This document shows positions 32,938 to 62,105 of a stretch of DNA of 64,000 nt, in pieces. Numbering within the stretch: position 1 is the first letter of the stretch; every line of letters starts with the position of its first letter. The notes below the pieces were generated by a model. That model did not search any database, was not told the DNA's origin, and saw only the letters and a list, made by a program, of their open reading frames with translations. The translations under genes were made by a program, and so were the position numbers. The DNA comes from Luteipulveratus mongoliensis. GTDB taxonomy: Bacteria; Actinomycetota; Actinomycetes; Actinomycetales; Dermatophilaceae. The stretch is from assembly GCF_001190945.1 (NCBI RefSeq), contig NZ_CP011112.1, positions 3,224,001-3,288,000 on the forward strand, in the 5' to 3' direction.

Positions 32938-34143
32938 ATGGTCAGCAAGCGCTACCGCCGGCGGGTGCTCGAACCTGTTGCAGCAGTCGGCATTGTCGCC
33001 GTCATCCTCATCGCACACGCCCCGTCGGGCCCGAATCCGTTGATCCGGCTGCCGCACCGGTCCTCGACGACGTCCGATGCCTCGGAGGAGGACGCGTCGT
33101 GGCCTCGGCTCGAGCCGGCGTGCGCTCCCGAGACCGCCGGCGCGGCACCCGCCAAGGTCACGGTCGCCGAGCTCAACCAGCTGGTCGACCATCTCGATCT
33201 CCCCTACTGGCAGGCGGCCGACATCGGCGCCAGTGGACGCCTGAGCGACAACCGTCTGGTCCTGGCTTTCGGCGACACGCTGCGCAAGCCCGACGTCGCG
33301 CCCAACCTGGTCGCGAACTCGCTCATCGTGGCCACCGGGCAGTGCGCGTCACAGGTGATGGTGCGCGACCACGGGGCGGTCATCCCCGATCGGCAGGACG
33401 GCGTCGTCTACTGGCCGACATCGCTCGTGGTGCTGCCCGGCTCCGGCTCCGACCAGGTGCTGGTGTTCACCTCACGCATCCGGCGTACGGGCAAGGGTGG
33501 CTTCGCCTTCACCTACCTCGGTGCCAGCGCAACCCGGTTCACGGTCCAGCCTGGAGGAGCACCGGTCCCGCAGGAGCAGATCGACATCACCCCTGACAGC
33601 GCGGACGAGACGCAGGTCAACTGGGGTGGTGCCGCGATGGCGGCGAAGAGCTGGTTGTACGTCTATGGCACGGGCCGCGCCACCGCCGGGCCTGGTCGAT
33701 CGTTGTACGTCGCACGCGCACCGCTGAGCAATCCCGAGGACCGCTCGCAGTGGCGCTTCTGGGACGGCGACTCGTGGGACCGGTCGCCGGACAAGGTGGA
33801 GCAGATCCTTCCGTCCGACGGCGTTTCACAGACCCTGTCTGCCGACTACCTGGGTGGCCGTTATGTCCTGGTGTCCAAGCGGGGCGGGGACTTCGGCGAC
33901 GAGGTCTACGCATGGTCCTCGTCATCGCCCGTCGGACCATGGCGCCGATCCAAGGGCGTCAGGGCCGAGTTCCGTGATCCCGCAGGCGGATTCCGCTATG
34001 CACCGCTCGCTCACCCCGAGGTGCCGCTGCAGTCGGGCAAGCTGCTGGTGAGTATCTCGCGCAACACCGACGACCTCGGCAAGCTGTTGCGCGACCCCCG
34101 AGTCGGGCGGCCCTACCTCGCCGAGATCGCTTGGCCACGCTGA
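32938..34143 (+). CDS. Exported DUF4185-like (five-bladed propeller) protein
   Basis: 401 residues. Basic start then one hydrophobic segment (VAAVGIVAVILIAHA), so exported or membrane-anchored. The body has the order seen in DUF4185/glycosidase-like propellers: WQAADIGASGRLSDNRLVLAFGDT, YVYGTGRATAGPGRSLYVAR, LSADYLGGRYVLVSKRGG and WSSSSPVGPWRRS. Catalytic residues cannot be assigned. No clear ribosome site before ATG 32938. Convergent with the sugar dehydrogenase gene (9 bp apart). A second, longer protein of this kind lies at 39615-41720. Confidence 0.7.
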   Translation: MVSKRYRRRVLEPVAAVGIVAVILIAHAPSGPNPLIRLPHRSSTTSDASEEDASWPRLEPACAPETAGAAPAKVTVAELNQLVDHLDLPYWQAADIGASGRLSDNRLVLAFGDTLRKPDVAPNLVANSLIVATGQCASQVMVRDHGAVIPDRQDGVVYWPTSLVVLPGSGSDQVLVFTSRIRRTGKGGFAFTYLGASATRFTVQPGGAPVPQEQIDITPDSADETQVNWGGAAMAAKSWLYVYGTGRATAGPGRSLYVARAPLSNPEDRSQWRFWDGDSWDRSPDKVEQILPSDGVSQTLSADYLGGRYVLVSKRGGDFGDEVYAWSSSSPVGPWRRSKGVRAEFRDPAGGFRYAPLAHPEVPLQSGKLLVSISRNTDDLGKLLRDPRVGRPYLAEIAWPR

Positions 34144-38361: not shown

Positions 38362-39570
38362 CTAGTCGGGCAGGAGCGGGACGGATACGCCCTGGTCACG
38401 GCCGAGGAGCACAGCCCGGGTCACGATCGAGGTGCCGTAACGGTCCCGCAAGTCGTCGATGGCCGCGTCGAGCGACCCGCGGTCGACGCGGTCGAACGGC
38501 AGGGCCAGCTGCAACGGGTCGTCGTCCAGCAAGTTGCTCAACGTCAGCCCGAGCAGCGTGCAGCCGTCGCTCTCGATCAGCGGCATGGCCGCCTCAAGCA
38601 GCTCACGCCCCGCTCGCAGGATGGTCTCGGTGTGCATCGTCGCCTCGGGCAGAGTGTGTGATCGTGTGGCGCGCGAGAAGTCGTCAAACCGCAGCCGCAG
38701 CACCACCGTTCGGCACACCCGATGCGCGGAGCGCAGGCGTTTGCCGAGCCGGTCGGCGATGGCGACCAGGGTCTGCTCCAGCTCCTCGATCGTCTTCGGA
38801 CGGCGACCCATCGCTCGTTGTGAGCCGATCGACCGCCGCCGGCGACCGACCTCGACCGGACGCGGGTCCCGCGCCTTGGCCAGGGCGTGCAGGTGGCGCC
38901 CGGAAGCCTGCCCGACCACGGACGTGAGTCGAGCCTCCGGAAGCGCGGCGAGCTGACCGATGGTGGCAATCCCTCGCTCGTGCAGGGTGCGAGCGGTGAC
39001 CTCGCCGACACCCCAGAGTCGCTCGATCGGCAACGGGTGCAGGAAGTCGAGCTCAGTGCCGGCCGGAACGACCAGCAGGCCGTCAGGCTTGGCCACTGCA
39101 CTCGCCACCTTGGCGAGGAACTTCGTGGAGGCGATCCCGACGGTGATGGGCAGTCCCACCTCGTCAAGAACCCGCGCCCGGAGGCGCCGTCCGATGGCCT
39201 CGGGCGCGCCACCGATGCGACGAAGCCCGCCGACATCGAGGAACGCCTCGTCGATCGACAGACCCTCGACCAGGGGAGTGGTGTCCCGGAACAGCGCAAA
39301 CACGGCCTTGCTCGCCTCGGAGTAGGCCTCCATCCGCGGTCGGACGGTCACCGCATCGGGGCACAGGAGCCGGGCACGCCGCTCATTCATGGGCGTGCTG
39401 ACTCCGCGTGCCTTCGCCTCGTAGCTGGCGGCCAGCACGATGCCGCCCCCCACGAGAACCGGACGGCCCCGCAGCGACGGGTCGTCCCGCTGCTCGACCG
39501 AGGCGTAGAAGGAGTCGAGGTCGGCATGCAGGATCGACGCCTCGGCGCGAGCCTTGATGGACACGAACAC
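38362..39570 (-). CDS. dinB: DNA polymerase IV (Y family)
   Basis: About 402 residues. Catalytic carboxylates lie in ILHADLDSFYASVEQ and EGLSIDEAFLDVGGL; SYEAKARGVSTPM and GIASTKFLAKVAS are Y-family marks; a little-finger domain follows, ending in LALPF, a likely beta-clamp motif. Error-prone translesion polymerase. Start is GTG at 39570 or 39564; the second would be leaderless. A LexA box covers the start. Confidence 0.95.
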   Translation of the reverse strand: MFVSIKARAEASILHADLDSFYASVEQRDDPSLRGRPVLVGGGIVLAASYEAKARGVSTPMNERRARLLCPDAVTVRPRMEAYSEASKAVFALFRDTTPLVEGLSIDEAFLDVGGLRRIGGAPEAIGRRLRARVLDEVGLPITVGIASTKFLAKVASAVAKPDGLLVVPAGTELDFLHPLPIERLWGVGEVTARTLHERGIATIGQLAALPEARLTSVVGQASGRHLHALAKARDPRPVEVGRRRRSIGSQRAMGRRPKTIEELEQTLVAIADRLGKRLRSAHRVCRTVVLRLRFDDFSRATRSHTLPEATMHTETILRAGRELLEAAMPLIESDGCTLLGLTLSNLLDDDPLQLALPFDRVDRGSLDAAIDDLRDRYGTSIVTRAVLLGRDQGVSVPLLPD

Positions 39571-39577
39571 ATGTTCG
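39564..39577. promoter_or_regulatory. LexA (SOS) box at the dinB start
   Basis: CGAACACATGTTCG fits CGAAC-N4-GTTCG, the Gram-positive SOS box, without mismatch. It overlaps the dinB start and the GAACAT hexamer that would serve as -10 for a transcript beginning at the GTG of 39564. Confidence 0.82.
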
Positions 39578-39614
39578 CATGCGGGCCCGACAGGACCCGG
39601 CTGTGTCAGGGGAG

Positions 39615-41720
39615 TCAGCCTTCTGTGGCAGTCACGTCATCGAGCTGCAGGAACTGATCGGCACCGCTACCGGTGAACCCCACGGCGACCGTGAGAGAGG
39701 TCGCGCCGGGTGGCGCTGTCACGGTGACCTGATGCTGGACGTATCCGCCCGAGGCCGGCGCGGGAGCGGATCCCACCACAGGCGTCCCGAGTCCGCCGGT
39801 TCGTACCTCGAGCCGGCCGCCCGCCATCCCAGCCGACGACTTCGTCCACACGCCGAAGGTGTAGCGGTGCCCCGGCTGCACGGGCACGGACTGGTTGTAC
39901 TCACTCCACCCGGTGCCCGATGTCCGGATCCAGCCGTTGTTCGCGCCTGTGTGGGCGAAGCCCAGACCGCGGTCGACGCCGTGACCGGTCGTCCCCTCGA
40001 ACGACCAGGCGGACGGCCCGCCCAGCGACTCGAAACCAGCATCGGCGACCTGGGTCGCATAGCCGACCTTGAGCGCCGCGACGGAGGTGAACGTCCTACT
40101 GCCGCCTGGGAATCCAAGCACGCGGACACCGCTCGTCGTCGCCGGGACGAACGACAGGTCGTACGTCTTGCCCGCCCCAGCGCTCGCGTCGCCGGGGTAG
40201 GTCGGAGAGATGGTCTGGCCGGCAGCGTCGACCCACTGGCCTTGATCGTTCTTGAGCTGAACACGTGGTCGTGCCGTGAACCAGCCGCCCTGCTCGGTGA
40301 CCGGCCCGGTCGTCAGCTGCACGCGGTTGACCGAGCGCGGGCTGGGCCAGGTGTAGCCCCACCAGCTCTGGCTCTTGACCTCGTCGTCGAGGTCGTCCAC
40401 AGCAGTCGCGGGGTCGCCGTCGTTGAGCGCCGAGAGCGTGCCGGACCGGGACGACTTGGACACCGCGACGGCACCGGTCGCCGGCAGGGCTAGGTCGGTC
40501 GACGCAGCTGGCACGTTGCCCAGGGGAGTGGGGTCGGACGGCGTCAGCTCAAGCTTGCGCAGGCTGTAGTGGTAGACGCTGGTGCCGGCCGGCGCGCACG
40601 GACAGACATTGGACTGGACGTAGAGCGACCGACCGTCCGCGCTCATGAACTTCGACGGCATCGTCGTGCCGTAGCCGCCGTACTTCGTCGGCGCCCAGGG
40701 GTAGCCGCCGAAGTCCTTGCTCTGGAAGTGCTTCCACGGTCCCCACGGCGTCGGCGACTCGTAGAACTCGTACGTGAACTCGGTCCAGGACGCGTAGAGG
40801 TACCGCTTCAGAGGAGCGTCGTACGTCACGCCGCCCTGGCTCACGACCGAGAAGCCACGCGCGGGCTGGCTGCCGGAGTAGGTCTGCTCGTAGAGCCGTC
40901 GCCCGTCGTGCATGATCGGCTGCTTGTCTCCGATCCTCTTGCTCCACAACGGGTTTCGCTTGGCGTCAAGGCCCCGGTAGAACTGCCACGCCCCGCGGTT
41001 CTGGATCTTGGCCTTGGGCACGCGCGCCAGGAACAGGTCCTGCGGATCGGGCACGGTGTCATCGAACGAGTCGCGCCAGTTGTCATCGAGGCCGTACGCG
41101 TAGACGTAGCCGTCCGGCGCCGCCGCCTTGCCGCGACCGAAGTCAGCGAACCAGACAGTGGTGAACTCGTGGTCGGAGAACATCGGCTTCGAGCGGTCCC
41201 AGGTCCACGTGCGACCGCCGTCCACGGACTTCACGATGCTGGCCGCAGGTACGTCGTTGAAGTCGAGGGCGAGGTCCTGGACCGCGAGATAGATCGTGTT
41301 GCCGTCGCAAACCATGCCGGTCGGCTTGCGGTTGTAACCCTCGCCGCTCCAGACCGAGCCGATCTGATCGCCACGCGCGATCGTCGTACCGGACAGGCTG
41401 GGCACGGTTCCACGGATCTCACTGACGGCGATGTCGGAGAACTCACCGTCGGTACTGAAGCCCTTGCCGTCGCCGTTCGCGGAGTACAGCGTGTCGTTCG
41501 CCGCCCAGCAGGACGGCCAGAGGTCGCCGTCGCTCTTGGTCGTGACGGACTCGTGGGACTCGACAGAAGACGTCCCGATGAAGGTGCTCGGGGGCGCATC
41601 ATCGCCCGTACGGCTGGCTGCGTGCCCAGGGGAGTCGGGCCGCTCGACCGCACCGGCTGACGTGGTGACGAGGGTGAGCATGATCGCCGTCGTGACGGCC
41701 GCAAGACTGGTACGCCGCAT
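39615..41720 (-). CDS. Secreted multidomain DUF4185-like propeller protein with C-terminal carbohydrate-binding-like modules
   Basis: 701 residues. Signal peptide MRRTSLAAVTTAIMLTLVTT ends near SAGAVERP. The first 430 residues form a propeller-like domain (GDQIGSVWSGEGYNRKPTGM, YVYAYGLDDNW, DLFLARVP, YASWTEFTYEFYESPTPWGPWKHF in two parts) similar in order to the protein at 32938-34143. The middle looks like a discoidin-type module (SKSSRSGTLSALNDGDPAT, WPSPRSVNRVQL); the C-terminal part like a CBM (GFESLGGPSAWSFEG, YTFGVWTKSSAG, FLQLDDVTAT). Probably acts on extracellular polysaccharide. ATG at 41720 follows AGAGGTGG. Confidence 0.78.
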   Translation of the reverse strand: MRRTSLAAVTTAIMLTLVTTSAGAVERPDSPGHAASRTGDDAPPSTFIGTSSVESHESVTTKSDGDLWPSCWAANDTLYSANGDGKGFSTDGEFSDIAVSEIRGTVPSLSGTTIARGDQIGSVWSGEGYNRKPTGMVCDGNTIYLAVQDLALDFNDVPAASIVKSVDGGRTWTWDRSKPMFSDHEFTTVWFADFGRGKAAAPDGYVYAYGLDDNWRDSFDDTVPDPQDLFLARVPKAKIQNRGAWQFYRGLDAKRNPLWSKRIGDKQPIMHDGRRLYEQTYSGSQPARGFSVVSQGGVTYDAPLKRYLYASWTEFTYEFYESPTPWGPWKHFQSKDFGGYPWAPTKYGGYGTTMPSKFMSADGRSLYVQSNVCPCAPAGTSVYHYSLRKLELTPSDPTPLGNVPAASTDLALPATGAVAVSKSSRSGTLSALNDGDPATAVDDLDDEVKSQSWWGYTWPSPRSVNRVQLTTGPVTEQGGWFTARPRVQLKNDQGQWVDAAGQTISPTYPGDASAGAGKTYDLSFVPATTSGVRVLGFPGGSRTFTSVAALKVGYATQVADAGFESLGGPSAWSFEGTTGHGVDRGLGFAHTGANNGWIRTSGTGWSEYNQSVPVQPGHRYTFGVWTKSSAGMAGGRLEVRTGGLGTPVVGSAPAPASGGYVQHQVTVTAPPGATSLTVAVGFTGSGADQFLQLDDVTATEG

Positions 41721-41756
41721 GGAGCCACCTCTGCGAGTTCGACCTCGCCTCGGTGC

Positions 41757-41801
41757 GAAATCGATTTCTCGAAATCTAAGGGTGACTGTCGAGTCGGTCA
41801 A
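41757..41801 (-). promoter_or_regulatory. Promoter with overlapping operator for the secreted propeller gene
   Basis: Minus-strand -35 TTGACC (41801-41796), 17-bp spacer, -10 TAGATT (41778-41773). Three half-sites follow: GAAATCGATTTC (41757-41768, perfect palindrome) and GATTTC-TC-GAAATC (41763-41776), the latter overlapping the -10. The CG-centred palindrome resembles LacI-family operators. No lacI-type gene lies in the window. Confidence 0.75.
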
Positions 41802-41917
41802 GCAAGTCGCCAGAACTCGCCTCCAGATCACTCACCGGGGCCCGGGAGAGTGTCAGTACGTCCGCCTACCGTGGGGTCGTACAGGCAGGGGAGTCCGAGA
41901 GCACCAGGAGAGCGCCC

Positions 41918-42469
41918 ATGAGCACACTGACCGATCGACCAGGCACAGCGCTGCTGGTCATCGACGTCCAGAACGATGTCGTGGCCAAGGCCCACGACCG
42001 CGACGCCGTGGTCGCCAACATCCGTAGTCTCGTCGACAAGGCTCGCGCGGCCGACGTACGCGTCGTCTGGGTGCAGCACTCGCACGACCAGATGACCCAG
42101 GGGAGCGAGGGCTGGAAGTACGTCCCGGAGCTCGTGCGTGAGGACTCAGAACCGTTGGTGCACAAGACTTTCGGGGATGCGTTCGAGGGCACCGACCTGG
42201 AGGATGTGCTGGCCTCCGGGGGTGTCGGGGGACTGGTCGTGACGGGAGCCGAGACCGATGCGTGTATCCGATCGACGATCCATGGCGCCTTCACCCGTGG
42301 CTACGACGTGACGTTGGTCGGCGACGCGCACACGACGAACGACAACAGCGAGTGGGGCGCACCGCCGCCGGAGCAGGTGATCGCCCACACCAATCTCTAC
42401 TGGCAGTTCCAGGACGGGCCCGGACGCACTGCAGCAGTCACGGAGACCAAGGACGTCACCTTCGACTGA
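41918..42469 (+). CDS. Cysteine hydrolase, isochorismatase family
   Basis: 183 residues. Catalytic triad visible: Asp16 in LLVIDVQND, Lys83 in LVHKTFGDAF, Cys116 in TGAETDACIRST. Members hydrolyse amides (nicotinamide, ureidocarbamate) or isochorismate; the substrate cannot be told. ATG at 41918 follows CAGGAGAG. A TACCGT hexamer about 45 bp upstream may be its -10. Confidence 0.9.
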   Translation: MSTLTDRPGTALLVIDVQNDVVAKAHDRDAVVANIRSLVDKARAADVRVVWVQHSHDQMTQGSEGWKYVPELVREDSEPLVHKTFGDAFEGTDLEDVLASGGVGGLVVTGAETDACIRSTIHGAFTRGYDVTLVGDAHTTNDNSEWGAPPPEQVIAHTNLYWQFQDGPGRTAAVTETKDVTFD

Positions 42470-60665: not shown

Positions 60666-61115
60666 CTATGGGCGGCCGGGAGCGGACGCTTCTCGATTCC
60701 TGATCGGTCTGGTGACCTGTTTCGCCACGCAGGGAGCCATGCCGACCGTGGCGTTCGCACCCTCCTGCCGATAGACGCTGGGCGGTACGCCGACGAGCTC
60801 GGTGAAGCGGGTACTGAACGTCCCGAGTGACGAGCAGCCGACCTCGAAGCAGACGTCGGTGACGCTGAGGTCGCCGCGACGCAGCAGGGCCATGGCCCGT
60901 TCGATGCGTCGAGTCATCAGGTACGAGTACGGAGACTCCCCGTACGCGCGCCGGAACTCCCGGCTCAGGTGACCGGCTGACATGTGCGCGTCGCGCGCGA
61001 GAGTCTCGACGTTGAGCGGCTGGGCGTACTCCCGGTCGATCCGGTCGCGGACACGGCGAAGACGCGCGAGGTCACGCAGGTGCTGACCCTCGTCCGATCT
61101 GCTCGTCACCTGCAT
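60666..61115 (-). CDS. AraC-family transcriptional regulator (DNA-binding domain only)
   Basis: 149 residues, essentially only the double helix-turn-helix: PLNVETLARDAHMSAGHLSR, FRRAYGESPYSYLMTRRIERAM and DVCFEVGCSSLGTFSTRF. No effector domain, like SoxS/MarA. ATG at 61115 gives a 44-bp overlap with the preceding gene; a later in-frame start would remove it but cut nothing essential. Likely activates its own operon. Confidence 0.9.
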   Translation of the reverse strand: MQVTSRSDEGQHLRDLARLRRVRDRIDREYAQPLNVETLARDAHMSAGHLSREFRRAYGESPYSYLMTRRIERAMALLRRGDLSVTDVCFEVGCSSLGTFSTRFTELVGVPPSVYRQEGANATVGMAPCVAKQVTRPIRNREASAPGRP

Positions 61116-61695
61116 GATCGTGCCACGACTCGCCGACCGGAGACCGGCCACTTCTACGCAGCAGGGCCACGAGATCGCCGCCGGAGGCAGGCCCAGACTG
61201 CTGCGCAAAGCCCTCCGCCGCGAAAGACTCCCCCAGCAACGCGGTCAGCCCAACGTGTGCGACGGCGACGGCCTCGTGCTCGAACGCGATCTCGAGTCCC
61301 AACGACGTGGCCAGATCCCAGGTGTGGATCACCGACTCGGCGATCAGCTCGTCGACCAGGACGGACGTCGGCGTCTCTCCGCGATACGGCATCGTCAGGG
61401 TCGGGCCGGCTGATTCCAGGCTTTCCAGCAGCGCCAGGGACGCCGCACGCTGATCGACCGACACGTCCTCGGATGCCACATAGGTCGGCGAACCATCGGC
61501 CAGGGGCGGCTCGAGCCCGGCCGCGCTTGCGGCAAAGACCTGCTGCCAGCCGACGATGTGCTCGACCAGGCGACGGACGTCGTACTCGGCACACGGGGTG
61601 ACTCGGCCCAGGTCATCGGGTCCCATCCCGTCCACCACGCCCTGCATGGTCCGCAGAACTCCCGCGAGCAGCTGCTTCCGGTGATCGCTCTCCAC
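61072..61695 (-). CDS. TIGR03086 family metal-binding protein (mycothiol-dependent maleylpyruvate isomerase fold)
   Basis: 207 residues, DinB-like four-helix bundle. Metal-binding His residues: LVEHIVGWQQVFAAS and ESVIHTWDLATSLGL; AHVGLTALLGESFAAEGF follows, typical of TIGR03086. Such proteins often use mycothiol as cofactor. GTG at 61695 stands 6 nt after TAGGGT. First gene of the four-gene minus-strand operon. Confidence 0.88.
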   Translation of the reverse strand: MESDHRKQLLAGVLRTMQGVVDGMGPDDLGRVTPCAEYDVRRLVEHIVGWQQVFAASAAGLEPPLADGSPTYVASEDVSVDQRAASLALLESLESAGPTLTMPYRGETPTSVLVDELIAESVIHTWDLATSLGLEIAFEHEAVAVAHVGLTALLGESFAAEGFAQQSGPASGGDLVALLRRSGRSPVGESWHDHAGDEQIGRGSAPA

Positions 61696-61707: not shown

Positions 61708-62105
61708 GGCGCCACGCGCGCGGAATCGATTACTAGGGCCTTCTTTGGCAAAGATTCGGCAAAGTTCCGGACGAACCGCACAAAACGCTCGCTCCTACCT
61801 TCCAGTAACAGCACCGCGCGTGCTCTAGTTGCCCAAACACCCGCCAACCAATGGCACCCCGCGACGCTTTTGCGTGCCCGTTCACAAAAGGCGTTCCGGG
61901 GTGGAACGGTATGCCCTGAACGTTGGCGGGTACCTGTCCAGTTGAACCATGGAGCTCTGCGTATCTCCAGCTGAGATTCTCGAATCTTGGCGATTCGCAA
62001 TGCTCTACAACCCATTTCGCCCCACTAGCATCATCGCCACGAGCCAATCCTGGCTCGCTCTTTCTGGCCTGTCGGGGCGCGGGCCTCATATGAGGGGAAT
62101 CACCT
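61708..62105. other. Long gene-free leader before the secreted protein gene
   Basis: About 400 bp, noticeably poorer in GC than the rest. Holds a perfect 7-bp hairpin CGAGCCA-ATCC-TGGCTCG (62040-62057) followed by CTCTTTCT, an imperfect repeat around 61860-61895 (CGCTTTTGCG ... CACAAAAGGCG) and GAATC-TTGGC-GATTC near 61982. No known riboswitch could be identified. Confidence 0.5.
62040..62057 (+). terminator. Terminator-like hairpin in the leader
   Basis: Stem CGAGCCA / TGGCTCG, loop ATCC, then a pyrimidine run CTCTTTCT. It lies 49 bp before the ATG of the secreted protein, a place where an attenuator would act. Confidence 0.45.

Follow-up and report, generated by a model that had tools for sequence, protein, structure and literature searches.

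A LacI-type operator before a divergent DUF4185 gene of Luteipulveratus mongoliensis and its probable place in a D-arabinan regulon

D-Arabinan is an unusual sugar polymer, found in mycobacterial arabinogalactan and lipoarabinomannan. Operators of the LacI family are palindromic, with a central CG and a AANCGNTT core. The enzymes of D-arabinan catabolism were described in 2023 (PMC10115798, PMC10509167). According to the available parts of PMC10509167, the Microbacterium arabinogalactanolyticum locus combines GH183, GH172 and GH116 enzymes with an ABC importer, an isomerase and a kinase, and Microbacterium D-arabinan genes are induced by D-arabinose and mycobacterial wall extract; its main text makes no mention of LacI, a regulator, a repressor, a promoter or an operator. 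Likewise, no published description of a LacI regulator or repressor was found in literature listings on D-arabinan, D-arabinofuranosidase and GH172. The genome of Luteipulveratus mongoliensis holds a comparable set of genes but differs from the Microbacterium locus in that its DUF4185 genes lie off-cluster and in that the protein considered here is of a divergent DUF4185 type. Its arrangement is also like that of the local sugar repressors of the LacI family, in which the operator overlaps the promoter and the repressor gene stands beside part of the regulon, whereas the predicted regulon content, directed at D-arabinan as a mycobacterial wall polymer, sets it apart from them. Here we analyse a 64-kb stretch of this genome (hereafter the window), in which a palindrome ahead of the gene for a secreted protein very probably binds a sugar-sensing repressor with further targets in D-arabinan degradation.

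Operator and promoter in the window

The elements at the start of the gene, which is read from the minus strand, are the following:

39615..41720, minus strand: putatively regulated gene, encoding a 701-residue protein with a divergent DUF4185 (GH183-like) domain (open reading frame, Pfam and profile comparison)
41725..41731, minus strand: ribosome-binding-site-like GAGGTGG, preceding the ATG at 41720 (read from the sequence)
41755..41770, no strand assigned: putative 16-bp LacI-type operator, GAGAAATCGATTTCGC on the minus strand (sequence and cross-genome comparison)
41757..41768, no strand assigned: 12-bp palindrome without mismatch, GAAATCGATTTC, containing the LacI-type core AATCGATT (sequence and pattern scans)
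41771..41776, no strand assigned: third half-site GAAATC of the original prediction, overlapping the -10 hexamer and not conserved at other operators
41773..41778, minus strand: -10-like hexamer TAGATT (sequence and promoter scan)
41796..41801, minus strand: -35-like hexamer TTGACC, spacer 17 (sequence and promoter scan)

The original prediction, made from the letters of the window, had proposed a minus-strand promoter TTGACC-N17-TAGATT before a 701-residue secreted protein. Both are borne out: the promoter (9 of 12 matches) is the sole sigma-70-like site found by scan in 39300-42400, where shuffled sequence gave a mean of 0.2 sites (sd 0.5), and the open reading frame has an N-terminus that, judged by eye, resembles a signal peptide. 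The operator touches the -10 box, lies 34 bp before the ATG and carries the hallmarks of its type, namely the central CG, the AANCGNTT core and the perfect palindrome GAAATCGATTTC. In addition, GAGAAATCGATTTCGC agrees in 15 of 16 letters with the perfect palindrome GAGAAATCGATTTCTC, which is present upstream of the LacI gene in a relative (G032).

The letters GAAATC-GATTTC-TC-GAAATC that had been placed on the promoter do stand at 41757-41776 of the plus strand, and their 12-bp palindrome holds, but their reading as a triple half-site as the functional unit was rejected. Among 32 hand-chosen operators, the third GATTTC is present in one, the window site itself, the others keeping at most four of its six letters; since this copy is largely -10 box, the label is best dropped. 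The element conserved across the compared sites is 16 bp long, GAGAAANCGNTTTCTC, and the functional unit is thus best read as the LacI-type operator GAGAAATCGATTTCGC. TTGAC occurs 15-50 nt upstream of 16 of 42 operators, again hand-chosen, against a background of 2.4%, which suggests that these operators are habitually placed on or just after the -10 box.

With at most one mismatch, GAAATCGATTTC matches once in the window and never in 100 shuffles; the 5.42-Mb genome holds one exact place and 10 further places with one mismatch, and the reversed-pattern control over the whole genome gave none. Its octamer core, AATCGATT, is found just 17 times in the 5.42 Mb (control, 0). Palindromes could be accidents of AT-rich promoter sequence with no protein bound to them, as the third half-site illustrates, but for the 12-bp element this explanation was rejected on genome-wide rarity and shuffle counts and, given also the recurrence of the motif before functionally linked genes in many genomes, is extremely improbable. 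The only other AATCGATT in the window, within GCGGAATCGATTACTA at 61720-61735, has three mismatches to the operator and lies 25 bp upstream of a minus-strand gene (61072-61695).

A probable D-arabinan cluster and the reach of its operator

The repressor gene had been placed outside the window, and indeed all 14 LacI genes of the genome lie elsewhere. A genome scan for the palindrome, which had been proposed as a way of finding a LacI-type regulator and sugar-use genes sharing the site, found the same site beside both: the AATCGATT sites bunch at 2.60-2.63 Mb, and the LacI gene there (G000:C1:2621111-2622142; G000 being the window's genome) is about 645 kb from the window. This region (L056) comprises the LacI gene, two sugar ABC transporters, a DUF2961/GH172 gene, a GH116 gene, an FGGY kinase and an isomerase-like gene, of which LacI, the substrate-binding proteins (SBP), DUF2961, GH116 and FGGY are confirmed by Pfam; the isomerase, tested as its G032 homolog, matches L-fucose isomerase weakly. 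Its GH172 matches the exo-alpha-D-arabinofuranosidase of PDB 8ic8 (E 3.4e-179, 599 bits), and its GH116 the exo-beta-D-arabinofuranosidase of PDB 8ic6 (E 5.8e-149, 501 bits). GTAATCGATTTC and GTAATCGATTCC stand between the divergent SBP genes of the two transporters, and GAAATCGATTAC precedes the kinase and isomerase. Elsewhere in the genome, operator sites precede a second sugar ABC operon with another GH172 as its last gene (L063), one more ABC transporter (L060) and a secreted PF00756 esterase (L104). DUF4185 genes are dispersed in this genome, at a distance from the cluster; two canonical ones (L105, L110) are preceded by degenerate sites with a AATCGAAT core, which do not count as independent because the genes are paralogs.

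Two side observations were made. In the cluster repressor genes of six genomes (G000, G146, G031, G032, G033 and G034; that is, L056:5111 and the LacI genes in L076, L078, L079, L080 and L081), no in-frame ATG, GTG or TTG stands close before the helix-turn-helix. In five of the six, an AGGAG-like site is followed 6-7 nt later by an ATC codon, where the G087 and G168 orthologs have ATG or GTG, and a conserved AUC start codon is likely. At L066, TGACCAAGAAATCG is found near two places 1.6 kb apart (L066:8393 and L066:9973), one ahead of a P450-like gene, the other ahead of an alpha/beta-hydrolase-like gene, and is possibly the site of another regulator.

The 16-bp pattern GARWAAWCGWTTWCYC was designed on the cluster sites of G000 and G032-G034, so that counts from these genomes are partly circular; neither the clusters of G017, G031, G087, G146 and G174 nor the DUF4185 sites outside clusters were used in shaping it. 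With at most one mismatch it is found at 28 places in 10 genomes (counted by hand from the scan), one of the ten, G168, having none, and 300 shuffled sequences of 64 kb gave no match at that threshold. At up to two mismatches the hand sums over the 10 genomes are 58 forward and 63 reverse matches, against 4 and 6 for the reversed pattern, places with exactly two mismatches being partly chance (7.9 expected per genome of such size). Judged by gene context, 21 of the 28 places are at D-arabinan genes; the other seven comprise two cutinase-like esterases, one PF00756 esterase, one LGFP-repeat protein and three elsewhere. Random scatter inside genes would, by the original prediction, have spoken against it. 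The near places judged coding or unrelated are G000 1470796, whose letters encode SKGFP where an ABC ATPase begins; G000 2424443, 3034944 and 4776835, within genes or at first codons; and G034 C4:137372. Those that match the pattern with at most one mismatch are still counted among the 28.

Among 186 genomes of the family, GH172 at >=75% identity is present in eight, a ninth having 45%. A LacI ortholog at >=59% accompanies GH172 in all eight, against 10 of 186 overall, the eight not being independent because four belong to one genus. Homologs of the window protein occur in four of the 186, the window's genome included; in G032, G033 and G034 the homologous gene (55-56% identity) lies between GH172 and GH116 of the same cluster type, and within and beyond the family such clusters contain it in five genomes. 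Off-cluster operator places precede DUF4185 genes, identified by Pfam, in G032, G034, G087 and G000. The operator is also found before cutinase-like esterases in G032 and G033 and before an LGFP-repeat protein in G032. The places before esterase and LGFP genes, the PF00756 esterase included, are the following:

L117:4681
L119:4664
L116:5252
L104:4360

Together these genes hint at functions directed at the mycobacterial envelope.

Outside the family, seven GH172 neighbourhoods were compared, six from the 22 other matching genomes and one from a separate search. A LacI gene (39-45% identity) with AATCGATT sites is present in four (L153, L154, L155 and L157), and the LacI-operator pair is absent from the other three (L156, L158 and L159). 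Two of the four, L154 and L157, encode a homolog of the window protein as well, with a site 15 bp upstream in L154. L155, which is closely related to the published Microbacterium locus (EndoMA1, 905 bits; ExoMA2, 1557 bits), carries GAAATCGATTTC sites and a LacI gene.

In Microlunatus speluncae, the ortholog of the window protein (L038, 55% identity) stands behind a different LacI-type site, TGCAACCGATTGCA, and the genome also has a D-arabinan cluster with the usual operator; thus, the link between this gene and a single regulator does not hold in all genomes. The palindrome might belong to one of the 13 LacI regulators other than that of the cluster, the window gene then answering another sugar, and a related site, TCGAATCGATTCA, does precede another LacI gene (L058). 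Yet the flanking letters of the L058 site differ, the window site shows an extended match to GAGAAATCGATTTCTC, the palindrome ahead of the LacI gene that belongs to the G032 cluster, and the gene has clustered homologs in five genomes, all of which makes this alternative unlikely. Comparison of sites and gene contexts instead makes it very likely that the window site is the operator of the cluster's LacI repressor, with a regulon for the uptake and degradation of D-arabinan, of which the window gene is most plausibly a scattered member.

The 701-residue secreted protein

The protein matches Pfam DUF4185 with 46.6 bits (cut-off 39.5) over positions 93-283 of 309, and hhalign against a GH183 profile gives 98% probability. 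It shares with the GH183 enzymes EndoMA1, EndoMA2 and DgGH4185a/b the DUF4185 match, the spacing of an Asp pair, predicted secretion, extra C-terminal sugar-binding-like sequence and, in relatives, the same gene neighbourhood. It differs from them in having two C-terminal domains, NedA-like and CBM_6-like (both under the Pfam cut-off), Gln at the place aligned with the third catalytic Glu, and DLWPxCW and GDGxGF, common to six members of its subfamily, where those enzymes have DLGI and GDTF.

The available parts of the published work give D33 and D51 as the nucleophile and acid/base of EndoMA1, 18 residues apart, and its third active-site acid, E243, as essential. In the window protein, D66 and D84 have the same spacing and are invariant in all six subfamily members, the local profile alignment ending short of that part, and E243 aligns in the profile comparison with an invariant Gln295. 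The regulator could be right and the protein still bind D-arabinan or act differently, having lost GH183 chemistry, a reading that agrees with the preferred explanation of the site; the Gln and the distance from canonical GH183 (the 46.6 bits) speak for it. On the other side stand the invariant Asp pair, the profile match and the report, in the available parts of PMC10115798, that mutating the Glu of DgGH4185b, another GH183 enzyme, broadly kept activity, and we regard such a loss as possible but somewhat doubtful. With the DUF4185 match, the Asp pair and the profile match weighed against the Gln, the most plausible reading is a secreted protein of divergent GH183-like type, its enzyme activity being putative.

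The fold of EndoMA1 is a five-bladed beta-propeller, as given in the available parts of its description, and the window protein may share it. An AlphaFold2 model from a three-row alignment (mean pLDDT 38) was too poor for a fold, and a PDB search gave only a weak match to the C-terminal CBM-like part. A second window gene, 32938-34143 on the plus strand, also has a weak DUF4185 match (45 bits), with no operator near.

Predicted control and its meaning

The original prediction of a LacI-like site and carbohydrate-controlled expression agrees with the presence of the same site at LacI and sugar genes, genome-wide and across genomes; the controlling sugar, which it left unnamed, can be narrowed to D-arabinan or D-arabinose, the control itself being predicted. 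The analysis shows the operator and how rare it is, that it stands repeatedly ahead of these genes, and that homologs of the window gene are members of such clusters; we infer repressor binding, the direction of control, the inducer and the enzyme activity. In the absence of inducer, initiation would be blocked by a repressor dimer bound to GAGAAATCGATTTCNC, which adjoins the -10 box on its downstream side. D-arabinose or a D-arabinan oligosaccharide would release it, and the 701-residue protein would then be made together with the GH183 endo-enzymes and the ABC importer, with GH172 and GH116 as exo-enzymes of the cytosol, and with the isomerase and FGGY kinase. The inducer is likely to be D-arabinose or an arabino-oligosaccharide, by analogy with the related Microbacterium genes, which rise on D-arabinose and mycobacterial wall extract.

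Because the operator also stands before cutinase-like esterases, a PF00756 esterase and an LGFP-repeat protein, the regulon might target the whole mycobacterial-type envelope beyond D-arabinan, its host being a scavenger or predator of Mycobacteriales and the window protein representing a new, divergent GH183 subfamily. We consider this broader reading rather improbable; if it were true, the esterases and LGFP protein could strip mycolyl esters or bind the wall, the actinobacteria carrying the operator would be specialists in scavenging or preying on Mycobacteriales, with the window protein, too, acting on that wall.

For the regulon as we prefer to read it, a specific candidate repressor and operator can now be proposed for D-arabinan catabolism. 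As the operator recurs at D-arabinan genes, a stray gene may be linked to the pathway by its switch alone, and the operator may serve as a search tag for enzymes that act on the mycobacterial wall but are encoded away from the known clusters, the divergent DUF4185 protein described here being one candidate.
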